A stretch of 12,388 nt of DNA from Granulicella sp. GTDB lineage: Bacteria > Acidobacteriota > Terriglobia > Terriglobales > Acidobacteriaceae. The notes below the pieces were generated by a model that was not told the origin of the DNA, made no database searches, and worked only from the letters and a program-made list of their open reading frames with translations. The DNA is taken from the NCBI GenBank assembly GCA_003133205.1, contig PKWK01000387.1, positions 7,452 through 19,839 of the forward strand, written 5' to 3'. The translations under genes and the position numbers were made by a program. Shown here in pieces: positions 4,530 to 10,356 of this stretch; the first letter of the stretch is position 1, and each line of letters starts with the position of its first letter.

Positions 4530-4811
4530 TTAGGCTGCCTTGGTGGCGGTGGCGACGGCCTTGACGCGGGCGTTCAGGCGCGCCTTGTAGCGGCTGGCGG
4601 TGTTCTTGTGCAGGACACCCTTCTGGACGCTCTTGTCGAGGACGGAGACAGTCTCCGAGTAGGTGGCGGCGATGGTCTTCTTGTCGCCGGCGGCGATGGC
4701 CTCGCGCAGGACGCGCAGGGTACCGCGGAGTTTGCTCTTGTTGGCGCGGTTGACCGCGGTCTTGGTTTCGGTCTGACGTGCGCGCTTCAGGGATGAGACA
4801 TGATTTGCCAT
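4530..4811 (-). CDS. rpsT: 30S ribosomal protein S20 (bS20)
   Basis: The 93-residue product is highly basic and begins [15 protein letters not shown], then [13 protein letters not shown]. This matches the bS20 N-terminus, which enters 16S rRNA helices. The C-terminal half has the expected [17 protein letters not shown] segment. bS20 is a primary binder of 16S rRNA in 30S assembly. The open frame extends to 4889, but ATG 4811 gives the family N-terminus and has the purine-rich AGAAAAGAG upstream. The gene is monocistronic: it has its own promoter and a leader of about 78 nt. It converges on the secreted-protein gene across a hairpin at 4480-4511. bS20 is autoregulated in E. coli; here a CCCGC/GCGGG hairpin in the leader is the only visible candidate element. 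Confidence 0.97.
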
Positions 4812-4832
4812 AGATCTAAACTCTTTTCTGGA

Positions 4833-4846
4833 CCCGCGATGGCGGG
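4833..4846 (-). promoter_or_regulatory. Small hairpin in rpsT leader
   Basis: CCCGC-CATC-GCGGG (minus strand) folds into a 5-bp stem with a 4-base loop, just upstream of the rpsT ribosome-binding region. It could affect translation initiation, but there is no direct evidence that it binds bS20. Confidence 0.3.
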
Positions 4847-4895
4847 AAAATGGGATGCAGGTGGACGTTGACACACCGCATCCCTCCAACTACTT

Positions 4896-5370: not shown

Positions 5371-7038
5371 TCAGTCGTCGGTGGGCTTTTCTTCGATGTG
5401 GTCGATGACCAGGACGGGGGAAGGGCGGCGTTGCTTCTCGAGCTTCACGCCGAGTTGCTTGTTGATGGCGTCGGGGAGCGAGAGGCCGCCGCTTGGGTCC
5501 GCGACCGCAGGTGCGTTTGGATCGCTGTTGGGCGGCGGTGGTGGAACGCTGCGGAGCTGACCGGCGGTGCTGAAGCTGAGGGTGAAGTCGTAGGCGTCCT
5601 TTAGGCCGGTGGCATCCAGGACCGGGGTGAAGACGTATCCGCTCGCGAGGGAGGGGAGCATATCGGCCAATTGCGCCATGGTCATGTTCTGGCAGTAGAG
5701 CAGGCGGCCGAGGATGGGATCTGCGATGCGGGGGTCCTTTCCGTCGGGCCCCGGGCCTTCCTTGCATCCGGTACGGTTGAGCGGGTCAGCCTTCTTCATC
5801 TTCGGGTTGGTGGCGACGAGGGTGAACGCCTCGATGGGCCGGTCCTCGAAGTGGCTCTGCATCTTGAAGCGCTCCGCCAGCAGCGTCTGCACCATGTGTG
5901 GGAGGAGGTCGAAGTCGAACTGGGGTTTTCCGTCTGGGCCGATGGCCTGGGCTTCAGGTGCGGCCTTGGCGAGGAGGTCGTAGTGGTCCTGGTTGAGGAA
6001 CTTGGGGGCGTTCTGGATGAGTTCGTCGTCATTCGGGTTGAGGTTCCAGGCGTAGGCGATCAGGAACTTCAGGGTGAGGCCGGTTGCGGTGATCTGGTTG
6101 CCTGTGATCCGCGCCTGGAGTGGTGCGTCAGGCTTGCTGGGAGTGAGGACGGCGACGTCGAACTCGGCTGGAGGCGGAGGCGGGAGGACCTTGTCCAGGC
6201 CGGGCACGTTGGGGGTGGGCTTCTCGTCGACCTTGTCGACGACGACGACGGGCGTGGGGTACGGCTCCAGGGCGAGTTTAAGTCCAAGCTGCTTGTTGAC
6301 GGCCTCGAAGATAGTGAGGCCATCAGGGCGGGGCTGCCAGGTCCAGTGGAGTTCGAAATCGTAGCCGCCCTTCAGATCGGTCGCGTCGACCACGGGCTTG
6401 GGGAGATACGCGGTGGCGAAGTCCATCAACATCTGTTTGAACTGCGCCATGGTCTGGTTGTGGCAGGTGACCGAATAGTAGGCCGGGACGCCGGGAGGGA
6501 GGTCGGTCGGGGTGTGGTGCTCGTCGATGTGGGAGGGTTCGCCTTCGTCGGCCTGCTTCAGCTTCGGGCCGCCTTTGTCGACGTGCAGGACGTAGGAGGG
6601 CCGGGGATGGGTGTCCTTGTGGAGGACGAGGTGGAAGCGGTCGGCGAGGAGGGCCTGGAGCATGAGCTTGATGTCGTCGGGCGAGGTGGTGCGGGGGGCG
6701 TGGGCGGAGACATCGAAGCGGTCGAGGTCGAGCCAGGCGGGACCGGAGAGGATGTTGTCGCCGTCCATGCCGTATGCGAGCGAGATCATGTCGACCATGG
6801 TGGCGTTGTGCAGGAGGTAGCGGTCGCCGTGCAGCCTGCCGCCGGTGAAGTACGGAGTGGTGGTCTTGGCGCTTAAGTGGACATCGGCAAGATCGAATGT
6901 GGGTGTGGTGGCGGTTGCGGCGTCTGAGGATGCGGTGGGAGCGGGCTCGCTGACCAGGGATTGGGCGAGTGCGGGGCCGGAGAGAAGGGCGAGGAGCAGC
7001 CCGCCCGCGAACGCTCGCTGTGCCATCAGAATCTTCAT
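5371..7038 (-). CDS. Double-domain TIGR03435 family secreted protein
   Basis: The 555-residue product has a signal peptide (MKILMAQRAFAGGLLLALLSGPALA, cleavage about 25). Two TIGR03435-like domains follow, at about 46-275 and 291-554, joined by a Pro-rich linker (VLPPPPPAEFDV). Both repeats share the same landmarks: MLQALLADRFHLVLH against MVQTLLAERFKMQSH; PVVDATDLKGGYDFELHW against PVLDATGLKDAYDFTLSF; and an ending of VVDKVDEKPT against VIDHIEEKPT. The family is usually one domain of about 230-250 residues and is expanded in soil acidobacteria; its biochemical role is unknown. The start at 7038 has AAGG eight bases upstream. The gene has its own promoter at 7189-7217. A single-domain paralogue lies directly upstream on the same strand. 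Confidence 0.88.
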   Translation of the reverse strand: MKILMAQRAFAGGLLLALLSGPALAQSLVSEPAPTASSDAATATTPTFDLADVHLSAKTTTPYFTGGRLHGDRYLLHNATMVDMISLAYGMDGDNILSGPAWLDLDRFDVSAHAPRTTSPDDIKLMLQALLADRFHLVLHKDTHPRPSYVLHVDKGGPKLKQADEGEPSHIDEHHTPTDLPPGVPAYYSVTCHNQTMAQFKQMLMDFATAYLPKPVVDATDLKGGYDFELHWTWQPRPDGLTIFEAVNKQLGLKLALEPYPTPVVVVDKVDEKPTPNVPGLDKVLPPPPPAEFDVAVLTPSKPDAPLQARITGNQITATGLTLKFLIAYAWNLNPNDDELIQNAPKFLNQDHYDLLAKAAPEAQAIGPDGKPQFDFDLLPHMVQTLLAERFKMQSHFEDRPIEAFTLVATNPKMKKADPLNRTGCKEGPGPDGKDPRIADPILGRLLYCQNMTMAQLADMLPSLASGYVFTPVLDATGLKDAYDFTLSFSTAGQLRSVPPPPPNSDPNAPAVADPSGGLSLPDAINKQLGVKLEKQRRPSPVLVIDHIEEKPTDD

Positions 7039-7188
7039 TCGAACCGCCTTGGGTGCAGAATGGGGAAACTCGGATGCAAGGCCGGGAAATGCTAGTTGGA
7101 TTAACGATTGTCTGGACGGATTCGTTCCACAAATGTCTGCCGGTTTTCGGCCGGAATTTCTGCGGTGCGGGCGCGAATCAACATTACC

Positions 7189-7217
7189 TATGTAGCAAAC
7201 TACTCTCAGTTTGTCAA
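7189..7217 (-). promoter_or_regulatory. Promoter of the double-domain TIGR03435 gene
   Basis: On the minus strand, a perfect TTGACA (7217-7212) is followed after 17 bases by TACATA (7194-7189). Transcription should start near 7182, giving a leader of about 145 nt. It sits just after the stop of the upstream single-domain gene, so the two TIGR03435 genes can be expressed separately. Confidence 0.75.
7192..7203. promoter_or_regulatory. Possible operator: inverted repeat overlapping the -10 box
   Basis: GTAG-CAAA-CTAC is a perfect 4+4 dyad that covers part of the -10 hexamer and the adjacent spacer of the 7189-7217 promoter. A protein bound here would block RNA polymerase, as expected for a repressor site. 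BlaI/MecI/CopY-type repressors use sites built from TACA/TGTA, and the overlapping TGTAG fits only partly. No regulator gene is present in the window. Confidence 0.4.
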
Positions 7218-7243
7218 GTGATTTGCTGCGGAGGAGTTAGGGG

Positions 7244-7987
7244 TCAGTTTTCGGTCGGAACTCTATCGACATGGTCGATGACGAGGAAGTCAACGGGGAC
7301 TTTTTCGGGCTGGAGTTTCAGGCCGAGTTGCTCCTGAACAGCGGTGAAGATGTCGGGCAGGCTGGGGTCGGGGTGGTCGGCGGTGGCGTAGTGGAGGTCG
7401 AAGGTATAGACGCCCTGGATGTTGGTCTTGTCGACGACCGGAGCGCCGATTGCTGCCGCGAGCGATCCGGCGAGGGCTTCCATATTGTTGCGTGACCCTC
7501 TGATCAGGTTCTGGAAGATATAGCCGAAGTACTTGTCGTCCGGCTTGCTGGGTTGGAGTTTCGGCTGGCTCTTCGTCACGACCAATGCGTAGCCGGAGAG
7601 CATTCGCGTCTCGTGGTGCACTACCAGGTGGAGGCGCTCTTTAAGCAGGTTCTGCAAGAGAGGTTCAATCTCTTTGCGCGAGAGTTGCTTATCGCCTTCC
7701 ACCTTCGCATCGACGACGTAGCACTGATCTTTCAGCCAGTCCGGGCCGGATATGTATGTGTTGTCGTGATGGAAGGCATCCGCAAGTACGATATCGAGGG
7801 TTTCGTTGTGGTAATAGACCCGGTTTGCCGGATAAGAACTCCAGGATTTGCGTTCATAGTCCTTCGGGCACAAGCGGACCGAGGCGACTTCGAACTCGGT
7901 TGGGTGCGCGGACGGGGGTGCAGTTTGCGCACGGGCCGGGAAGCACGACAGCACGGTGGCGAGGATCAGGAGTAGCGCCGTCTTCAT
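7244..7987 (-). CDS. Single-domain TIGR03435 family secreted protein
   Basis: The 247-residue product begins with a signal peptide (MKTALLLILATVLSCFPARA, cleavage about 20). One TIGR03435 domain follows from about residue 32 (EFEVASVRLCPKDY) to the C-terminus (FLVIDHVDRVPTEN). Landmarks include SGPDWLKDQCYVVDAKV, LLQNLLKERLHLVVHHETR, APVVDKTNIQGVYTFDLHY and VQEQLGLKLQPEKVPVDF, parallel to both halves of the 555-residue neighbour. The frame stays open to 8251, but ATG 7987 gives the signal peptide and overlaps the stop of the upstream membrane-protein gene as ATGA, which implies translational coupling. No independent Shine-Dalgarno is visible. Family function is unknown. Confidence 0.88.
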   Translation of the reverse strand: MKTALLLILATVLSCFPARAQTAPPSAHPTEFEVASVRLCPKDYERKSWSSYPANRVYYHNETLDIVLADAFHHDNTYISGPDWLKDQCYVVDAKVEGDKQLSRKEIEPLLQNLLKERLHLVVHHETRMLSGYALVVTKSQPKLQPSKPDDKYFGYIFQNLIRGSRNNMEALAGSLAAAIGAPVVDKTNIQGVYTFDLHYATADHPDPSLPDIFTAVQEQLGLKLQPEKVPVDFLVIDHVDRVPTEN

Positions 7988-8307
7988 CGTGGGCGGATGG
8001 ACAGCGCGGGGTCCGGGACATGCTTCTTCTTTTGCCGGGGGCCGCGCAGAACGAGAAACGGAATGCAGAGAACCATCGCGATGGGTGCGACCACCAACCA
8101 GGGAGAGGCCTGCCATATGTATATCAATGTGTGGGCGGGATATTGGTGGACGGTATAAAGCGCCACTCGAAAGCCAGCAACGATCTCGTAGGCCAGCGCG
8201 CCAAGGAGGATGCACCACGCAAGTCTCCGCAACACCGGCGGGGGCGTCCACAGGTTTCTATTTCGTTCTGCTTCCATTCGGCGGGCAATAGGCTGGAATG
8301 CGCGCAT
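7984..8307 (-). CDS. Small two-TM membrane protein, unknown function, coupled to TIGR03435 gene
   Basis: The product has 107 residues. Two hydrophobic segments, at about 29-50 (LAWCILLGALAYEIVAGFRVAL) and 69-88 (PWLVVAPIAMVLCIPFLVL), are separated by a polar loop. A basic cytoplasmic-type tail (RGPRQKKKH) follows. The ATG at 8307 has a near-perfect GGAGGAG seven bases upstream, strong support for a real gene. Its TGA overlaps the next ATG by four bases (ATGA), so it forms a two-gene operon with the secreted TIGR03435 protein, and the two products may act together at the membrane. I do not recognise a family. The upstream promoter was not identified. Confidence 0.75.
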   Translation of the reverse strand: MRAFQPIARRMEAERNRNLWTPPPVLRRLAWCILLGALAYEIVAGFRVALYTVHQYPAHTLIYIWQASPWLVVAPIAMVLCIPFLVLRGPRQKKKHVPDPALSIRPR

Positions 8308-8392
8308 CTTAGTCTCCTCCAGTTATGGGAAGTTTAGCAGCGGTTGGAGGGGGGTGCACCTTGGACGGTGCGAGAATCATCTAAAAATTGGC

Positions 8393-8421
8393 TTGACTGT
8401 GTGCGGGCGAAGTTCTAGTCT
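8393..8421 (+). promoter_or_regulatory. Promoter of the phoH-ybeY-corC cluster
   Basis: TTGACT (8393-8398) and TAGTCT (8416-8421) are spaced by 17 bases. The -35 matches consensus at 5 of 6 positions; the -10 keeps TA...T but is otherwise weak. Transcription would start around 8428, the first base of the long stem in the leader, leaving about 167 nt of untranslated RNA. Confidence 0.55.
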
Positions 8422-8427
8422 GTGCGC

Positions 8428-8522
8428 AACTTCGGCAAATTATTGGCAACCCTCGCCAATCCGGTTGCAGGCCCACAGACGACACCTCGTGCTGCGCGGA
8501 GCTTCAAAATCCTGCCGAAGTT
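8428..8522 (+). ncRNA. Structured 5' leader element of phoH, candidate cis-regulatory RNA
   Basis: AACTTCGGCA (8428-8437) and TGCCGAAGTT (8513-8522) are perfectly complementary over 10 bp and close a domain of about 95 nt. Inside it, ATTGGC (8442-8447) pairs with GCCAAT (8455-8460) around a 7-base loop. A second arm can form from ACGA (8480-8483) with TCGT (8488-8491), extended by GCAG/CTGC (8467-8470 with 8492-8495) and possibly CCG/CGG. The result would be a multibranched fold like a riboswitch or protein-binding leader. I compared it by memory with common riboswitch consensus sequences and could not assign it. No sequence conservation data are available. Confidence 0.5.
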
Positions 8523-8547
8523 CTCCCTTATCCACTGTGTTTCCTAT

Positions 8548-8560
8548 TTGGAGCATCCAA
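8548..8560 (+). other. Small hairpin in phoH leader
   Basis: TTGGA-GCA-TCCAA forms a perfect 5-bp stem with a triloop between the large leader domain and the ribosome-binding hairpin. No T-run follows, so it is not an obvious terminator. Confidence 0.4.
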
Positions 8561-8572
8561 CCCCTGCACGTC

Positions 8573-8586
8573 CTGACGGAGGTCAG
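8573..8586 (+). promoter_or_regulatory. phoH ribosome-binding site held in a hairpin loop
   Basis: CTGAC-GGAG-GTCAG folds into a 5-bp stem whose loop is the Shine-Dalgarno core GGAG. The start codon TTG at 8595 lies about 12 bases past GGAGG, rather far in linear distance. Presenting the site in a loop could either expose or restrict it, suggesting control of translation initiation. Confidence 0.5.
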
Positions 8587-8594
8587 AAAACTAC

Positions 8595-9647
<1,053 letters not shown>

Positions 9648-9723: not shown

Positions 9724-10356
9724 ATGATCACCATCGAACTCCCACCGACAATCGCTGCTTCGCCTGACTTCGCCCTGTCGAAGGCGGGGCTGACGCGTTT
9801 TCTCAACCGGGCGCGCGTGGCGGTGGGACTCGACGGCGAAGTTCACGTGCTGCTGGCGGATGATGCGACGCTGCGCCGGCTAAACCGGAAGTTTCGCGGC
9901 AAAGATAAGGCGACGGATGTGTTGTCGTTTCCAGCGGGGGTGACTACGGTCTTTTTCGGTGATCCTGAAGGCCCGGAGTTTGCAGGGGATCTGGCGATTT
10001 CGCTGGAGACGGCGGCGAGGCAGGCGGCGCGATTTGGGCATTCGCTGCGGGATGAAGTGCGGGTGCTGCTGCTGCATGGGACGCTGCATCTTGCGGGCTT
10101 CGACCATGAGGTTGACCAAGGCGAGATGGCGGCGCGCGAGGCGGAGTTGCGGCGGGAGTTGGGGCTGCCGACAAGCTTGATCGCGCGGGTGGGTACGCCT
10201 GCGGTGAAGGTCAAGAACAAGCAAAGGCGAAATACGGGGGTTCTTCGCTCCGCTCAGAATGACAAGGGCAGAGGTGTGGCTCAGAAGGACAAACGTAAGG
10301 GTGGGGCTCAGAAGGACAAGCGTAAAGTTGTGGTTCGCAGGCGGGTGCGGACATGA
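9724..10356 (+). CDS. ybeY: Endoribonuclease/rRNA maturation factor YbeY with repeat-derived C-terminal tail
   Basis: YbeY is a zinc-dependent endoribonuclease family involved in 16S rRNA 3'-end maturation and ribosome quality control. The product has 210 residues, compared with about 150-165 usually. The core includes LNRKFRGKDKATDVLSFP (53-70), GDLAIS (88-93) and the metal-binding HGTLHLAGFDH (118-128) with all three histidines. The core ends near residue 160. From 165 the sequence becomes Lys/Arg-rich (VKVKNKQRRNTG) and runs through a dispersed repeat and three 9-residue tandem units (AQNDKGRGV, AQKDKRKGG, AQKDKRKVV). This tail looks like repeat insertion or read-through, not part of the fold. 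The stop overlaps the next ATG as ATGA. No strong Shine-Dalgarno is visible at 9724. Confidence 0.95.
   Translation: MITIELPPTIAASPDFALSKAGLTRFLNRARVAVGLDGEVHVLLADDATLRRLNRKFRGKDKATDVLSFPAGVTTVFFGDPEGPEFAGDLAISLETAARQAARFGHSLRDEVRVLLLHGTLHLAGFDHEVDQGEMAAREAELRRELGLPTSLIARVGTPAVKVKNKQRRNTGVLRSAQNDKGRGVAQKDKRKGGAQKDKRKVVVRRRVRT
10236..10267. repeat. Dispersed 'CHSERSEE/LRSAQNDK'-type repeat inside ybeY
   Basis: The stretch with TTCTTCGCTCCGCTCAGAAT and the following GACAAGG matches, from memory, a short repeat scattered through many bacterial genomes. Its reverse complement reads TGTCATTCTGAGCGGAGCGA, and it turns up in spurious ORFs as CHSERSEE or LRSAQND peptides. It contains the near-palindromic core TTCGCTCCGC. 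Here it is read in frame within ybeY. Confidence 0.6.
10252..10332 (+). repeat. Three 27-nt tandem units in the ybeY 3' end
   Basis: Units start at 10252, 10279 and 10306, each beginning GCTCAGAA and keeping GACAA. The exact 27-base period maintains the reading frame and encodes three copies of AQ(N/K)DK(G/R)(R/K)xx. The first unit overlaps the dispersed repeat, which suggests that the array grew from part of it. Confidence 0.75.

Follow-up and report, generated by a model that had tools for sequence, protein, structure and literature searches.

Among the described systems closest to the one reported here is uPPE2, an upstream open reading frame (uORF) of Mycobacterium tuberculosis that lies before ppe2 and overlaps it. 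Termination-reinitiation was shown for this uORF, ppe2 depends on it mainly through that process, the overlap is AUGA, and the uORF, which goes together with a B12 riboswitch, was experimentally tested (PMC11260477). In Escherichia coli, ribosomes are bound by uORFs at the 5' terminus, which can affect the gene that follows; ribosomes enter at the extreme 5' end, the main gene has a Shine-Dalgarno start, and in the rows examined of that dataset the uORFs have an ATG at the 5' end and 5–26 codons (PMC4965119, in part). Another example is mgtQ of Salmonella, described in the cited part of the source as a short leader ORF that aids translation of the next gene, with a folded start region and with acidic codons that destabilise the ribosome (PMC8092293). 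The ilvB-II motif of Corynebacterium was a candidate structured RNA that turned out to be a uORF, acting by attenuation with codons for the amino acids of the pathway (PMC10272879, cited sections). In addition, the average share of genes predicted to be leaderless was 13.3% across three genomes of Acidobacteria (PMC3160421).

Here we describe a leader upstream of phoH in Granulicella sp. that we interpret, with a probability of about 0.76, as a translationally coupled leader ORF with its start codon in a hairpin. The comparison of leaders reported below brings out a stop-free frame, the place where it ends, a covarying hairpin at its start site and a tie to phoH. The overlap with the main gene is TTGA instead of the AUGA of uPPE2. 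Unlike uPPE2, the phoH leader has no aptamer, has its start codon in a hairpin and is conserved over many species, and dependence of phoH on the ORF is something we infer. Like the E. coli uORFs it would be entered at the extreme 5' end ahead of a main gene with a Shine-Dalgarno start, and like mgtQ it would help translation of the next gene from a folded start region, although its peptide is unconserved. It shares with ilvB-II its history as a candidate structured RNA, but has no listed terminator-like site. In PMC4965119, neither the word "conserved" nor phoH occurs. Among the titles and abstracts searched (open PMC subset; subscription papers fall outside it), we noticed none that describes an ORF in the leader of phoH.

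The phoH-ybeY locus and the leaders compared

The window, by which we mean the whole stretch of 12,388 nucleotides analysed, carries on its plus strand phoH (8595–9647, TTG start; PF02562, E = 1.3e-96) and ybeY (9724–10356; PF02130, E = 9.5e-29), with further genes assigned by domain that encode a CBS/CorC_HlyC-domain protein and a DAGK_cat protein. phoH and ybeY form a widely kept gene pair that is linked to ribosome maturation. In the part of the literature cited here, E. coli YbeY is tied to maturation of the 16S 3' end and binds the PhoH-like YbeZ in two-hybrid tests, and YbeZ was given in 2016 as a protein of unknown function (PMC5101352). The ybeY gene overlaps the next ORF (CBS/CorC_HlyC domains) by 4 nt (10353–10356), so coupling may continue down the operon. 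The C-terminus of YbeY is a repetitive basic tail with AQKDKRK repeats (window approximately 10180–10356). On the minus strand, the stretch 5371–8307 holds a DUF3738 protein divergent from phoH, and an ORF at 5371–7038, beyond that protein, looks similar by reading only. Reading of the ORF list also pointed to an S20-like ribosomal protein ORF at 4530–4889 (minus strand).

The first phoH scan gave 80 loci, of which 70 were used and 66 were then kept along with the window; left out were L054 and L065, which begin within the gene, the distant L073–L080, and L068, L069, L070 and L072. The closest phoH relatives belonged to MAGs labelled Granulicella and other Acidobacteriaceae. Another 90 loci from genomes of one family brought the total to 157 leaders (144 distinct); 60 of the family leaders were taken from the top of an identity ranking and are not a random family sample. 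A wider sample consisted of 47 loci, 20 from the family and 27 from the class, with L233 and L241 dropped for want of a start and L236 as too short. The leaders share descent.

Promoter and predicted transcription start

Upstream of phoH, we read from the sequence a putative promoter (8393–8421, plus strand) with TTGACT at 8393–8398 and TAGTCT at 8416–8421, separated by 17 nt. A similar promoter was present in 140 of the 144 distinct leaders according to our own pattern, and these form the 140-leader set used below, in which the predicted transcription start lies 109–263 nt from the gene start. The first-pass annotation had placed the transcription start on the first base of a 10-bp stem; the promoter indeed predicts a start at about 8428, which is that base, but a plain consensus promoter scan listed none in 8200–8800.

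The closing stem

The arms of this stem, 8428–8437 and 8513–8522 (plus strand), form an exact inverted repeat in the window, as had been claimed, and were thought to close a 95-nt domain with at least two inner arms, an arrangement typical of riboswitches or autoregulatory protein sites. Such an untranslated structured RNA finds some support within the window. The 95-nt domain had a predicted energy of −33 kcal/mol (z −3.2, with 1 of 200 shuffles equally good), and when the downstream leader was shuffled 300 times it never paired as well with the 5' segment (p 0.003). For the 198-nt leader plus gene start, z was −1.38 and 22 of 200 shuffles were equally good.

Conservation of the stem was examined by comparing duplex energies with shuffles, swapped partners and two controls, and by counting pairs in the close clade. 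Perfect pairing of the 5' segment extends over at most 10 bp in the window, compared with 7, 7, 5, 5, 5 and 4 bp in six close relatives. Among seven close leaders, 52.9% of stem cells were paired, no pair was altered on both sides, and 346 of 500 shuffles paired equally well over the whole drawn structure. Across 94 leaders, the mRNA 5' end was complementary to the rest of the leader at p<0.05 in 14, compared with 13 for the reversed segment and 8 for the promoter segment; 67 leaders on their own gave 11. The closing stem was therefore rejected as a family feature: related leaders either do without it or offer no compensatory substitutions, and the inverted repeat, although exact in the window, does not mark a conserved unit. 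Combined over the 94 leaders, p was 5e-7 for the real 5' segment, below the 8e-4 of the reversed control and the 0.04 of the promoter control, and helices of 8–10 bp with different sequences occur in a few lineages (for example, L057, L060, L040 and L129); the lower combined p suggests that some lineages may have a pairing of their own. Given the controls, the close clade and the stop-free frame described below, we consider a structured RNA closed by the 10-bp stem very improbable.

Nothing in the window reached the gathering score of an Rfam family, and the stretch 8380–8620 had no match even at E<=5, in line with the earlier statement that the element could not be matched to a known class. 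Judged by the comparison of leaders, phoH is preceded by a conserved cis-acting region that matches no Rfam family. No intrinsic terminator (hairpin plus T run) was listed in 8200–8800 of the window.

A stop-free frame spans the leader

The region that had been proposed as a possible riboswitch or autoregulatory site is instead occupied by a frame that appears to be under selection. In the window, this leader ORF (8443–8598, plus strand) has a TTG start and 51 codons, and its TGA (8596–8598) overlaps the phoH start as TTGA. When stops were counted by frame in 105 leaders, omitting the first 21 and last 40 nt of the leader frame, only 3 of 3423 codons were stops in the leader frame versus 86/3406 and 65/3331 in the other two; this test covers phoH leaders only. 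The leader frame was open in 103 leaders and the others in 46 and 55. The same was seen in 71 divergent leaders that have little sequence in common, with 0/2362 stops versus 53/2350 and 47/2300 and with 71, 33 and 37 open leaders, respectively, and also when TTGG was the only anchor (4/3406 versus 86/3387 and 66/3313). In the same phase, stops amounted to 2–5% upstream of the predicted transcription start. Their count was 2/525 over the five codons preceding the TTG and 0/3675 over the 35 that begin with it.

The first codon differs from TTG in a few leaders (CTG in L005, L027 and L146; TCG in L030), and an upstream Shine-Dalgarno-like 4-mer was found in 12 of 105. By the usual rules, a TTG located 15 nt from the 5' end with no Shine-Dalgarno sequence is a poor start. 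Leaders L006 and L007 contain a palindromic repeat-like insert, GGCGGGACTGAAGTCCCGCC, through which the ORF stays open until 18 nt before phoH.

Openness versus peptide

GC content by codon position was flat in the leader ORF (0.599/0.572/0.593), as opposed to the coding-like pattern of phoH (0.651/0.372/0.786), and substitutions at positions 1, 2 and 3 numbered 72, 103 and 113 in 21 close pairs, which overlap. Moreover, frameshifts separate close relatives in which the tail is still open (L043, L045 and L050 versus L047; L015 and L021 versus L018). Flat composition and frameshifts together argue that openness, or the passage of ribosomes, rather than the peptide seems to be under selection.

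A peptide that acts itself, by ribosome stalling or in trans, could be suggested by the beginning of the product, where most of the 105 leaders encode M-[A/V]-x-x-[A/T]-[N/I]-[P/S/T]. The remainder, however, differs between lineages, it shifts frame between close relatives, its GC is flat and it has no Pfam family, and we regard this possibility as improbable. Two leader peptides matched no database protein in a search that requires shared 5-residue words, a requirement that makes this weak evidence that such ORFs stay unannotated.

The start-site hairpin

One of the inner arms of the original description proved to be both present and conserved. It is a hairpin at 8442–8460 (plus strand), A-TTGGC, a 7-nt loop (AACCCTC) and GCCAA-T, whose 5' arm includes the TTG start codon. 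The motif common to the leaders is TTGG[C/T]-N7-[G/A]CCA[A/T]-NN-CG. Of 140 leaders, 104 have a loose anchor, TTGG at 2–22 nt past the predicted transcription start, compared with 11 for a control window, and in most of the 104 the 3' arm and CG then follow. The patterned anchor demanded the stem GG and the last G of the site and favoured or demanded CG, so that agreement in 87/87 at patterned positions is by construction; with the TTGG-only anchor, 78 of 86 distinct sites carry the CG. Among the 105 sites, three (L071, L194 and L195) are mis-anchored or doubtful.

Variation was informative at the fifth pair, which was C-G in 41, U-G in 31, U-A in 8, other in 7 and C-A in none of 87 distinct sites; the outermost pair was U-U in 19. 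Three C-A cases that arose with the TTGG-only anchor (L039, L041 and L071) have a 12-nt loop insertion and an intact stem. In addition, the Ala codon whose third base is paired in the stem was GCC in 69 of 70 GCN codons, compared with 41% among phoH Ala codons, which suggests that this base is held beyond coding. As far as aligned sequences can tell, the inner hairpin is conserved and covarying.

The same sequence could be viewed as a DNA operator, since TTGGC-N7-GCCAA forms a palindrome at about +15, a position shortly after the promoter where a repressor might bind. A symmetric site should show both one-sided changes at the fifth pair, but U-G was seen 31 times and C-A never, which fits RNA. 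A DNA operator would also leave the stop-free frame unexplained, and there is one strong site per genome; we give it hardly any credence.

The junction with phoH

At its other end, the leader frame meets the start of phoH. Its end falls at 0 to +11 nt relative to the gene start in 83 of the 105 leaders and beyond that in 9; it stops up to 20 nt short of the gene start in 8 and farther away in 5. About 20 of the 105 gene starts, which were set by alignment to the window protein, are not ATG, GTG or TTG, so frame ends at these may be a few codons off. GGAG precedes phoH in 125 of 140 leaders. In the window, the Shine-Dalgarno sequence GGAGG (8578–8582) is surrounded by a hairpin, CTGAC-GGAG-GTCAG (8573–8586, plus strand), which was read from the sequence. 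This hairpin, CTGACGGAGGTCAG, is exact in 57 of 140 leaders and in no shuffle; the predicted fold of the window places it only partly.

These features bear on a Rho-dependent attenuator, in which translation of the leader ORF would shield C-rich RNA from Rho and failed translation would lead to a stop before phoH. Such a device would likewise require an open frame, and C exceeds G in the middle of 123 of 140 leaders while the two are about equal upstream of the promoter and in phoH. It has no need, however, for a frame that ends at the phoH start or for a Shine-Dalgarno hairpin. We consider a Rho attenuator possible although rather unlikely as the explanation, and it may operate alongside coupling.

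The phase between leader ORF and phoH in the 71 divergent leaders was the overlapping one in 50 and the other two in 12 and 9. A programmed frameshift joining the two ORFs was rejected because the phase is inconstant. Between the start-site hairpin and the Shine-Dalgarno sequence, the window has GCATCCAA at 8553–8560; the corresponding GCATC[C/T]AA occurs in 44 of 140 leaders versus 0.7 in shuffles and seems to lie within a small hairpin in some relatives.

Distribution and specificity

In 130 of 140 leaders, compared with 55.8 in shuffles, an ORF reaches phoH from a start no more than 60 nt away from the predicted transcription start. Leaders without the TTGG site behaved similarly (31 of 35 versus 14.5 in shuffles), and in seven of them (L193, L196–L199, L202 and L203) the ORF is opened by an ATG located 1–2 nt from the predicted start. 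In the wider sample, an ATG ORF reaches phoH in 33 of 47 leaders (16.5 expected), 17 of which have it behind a promoter-like pattern; 14 of 47 had no ATG ORF reaching phoH, and 11 of these belong to the 27 class-level loci. The presence of ATG at the matching place in other leaders supports TTG as the start codon of the leader ORF. Several class-level leaders (L225, L227, L232, L235 and L242) have, upstream of phoH, an ATG that leads into a GC-rich stretch resembling CCTCCGCGCCAGCGGATGTCCGGCC, which may be a separate kind of hairpin near the start.

A model of the 5' end was built from an alignment of 63 leaders that omits L004, L026, L032, L044 and others with odd hairpins, and it matches the site of the window at E 1.7e-13. 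In 18 genomes chosen via the sampled loci, its strong sites (E<1e-4) numbered 15 and were spread over 14 genomes, the remaining 4 having no strong match. By coordinates, 14 of the 15 are phoH leaders; the fifteenth, in genome G001, is at a contig end that opens another phoH (34 residues, 97% like that of the window), and this second phoH leader retains the 5' arm AACTTCGGCA without the 3' arm. A strong site once per genome, at phoH, is unlike a riboswitch serving several genes, while a single-gene element would still be compatible.

Under stricter filters, 35 of 200 family genomes matched the model at E<=0.01, although 194 hold phoH, indicating that the exact hairpin is, on these searches, a trait of part of the family. 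Among 30 matches examined, 25 were at phoH and 5 weak ones were elsewhere (L102, L105, L106, L108 and L110); weak matches away from phoH, L112 and L113 also among them, were taken as chance.

Proposed mechanism and implications

In the coupled leader ORF that we favour, the mRNA would begin at about 8428, and a ribosome would initiate at the TTG at 8443, a codon that lies 15 nt behind the 5' end and lacks a Shine-Dalgarno sequence. The start codon would be held in the 5' arm of the hairpin at 8442–8460, which would set the frequency of entry into the leader. Having read through 51 codons of unconserved peptide, the ribosome would open the Shine-Dalgarno hairpin (8573–8586) in transit, terminate at the TGA (8596–8598) and restart at the overlapping TTGA by termination-reinitiation. 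Translation of the leader ORF, arrival at phoH by reinitiation and control of entry by the hairpin are what we infer from these patterns.

The 3' end of 16S rRNA is the part of the ribosome that reads Shine-Dalgarno sequences. A bolder idea, which we offer as an unlikely speculation, is that the leader ORF acts as a landing pad independent of Shine-Dalgarno sequences. Ribosomes whose 16S end is unfinished could then still make PhoH and YbeY, by entering the leader without a Shine-Dalgarno sequence and reinitiating, and ribosome maturation would have a built-in loop of rescue or feedback.

The phoH leader may also serve as a warning that leaders assumed to be structured RNAs can be translated. 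An open leader whose peptide drifts over many species suggests that ribosome transit itself is selected, and the leader ORF would thus provide a direct handle on control of the phoH-ybeY operon.
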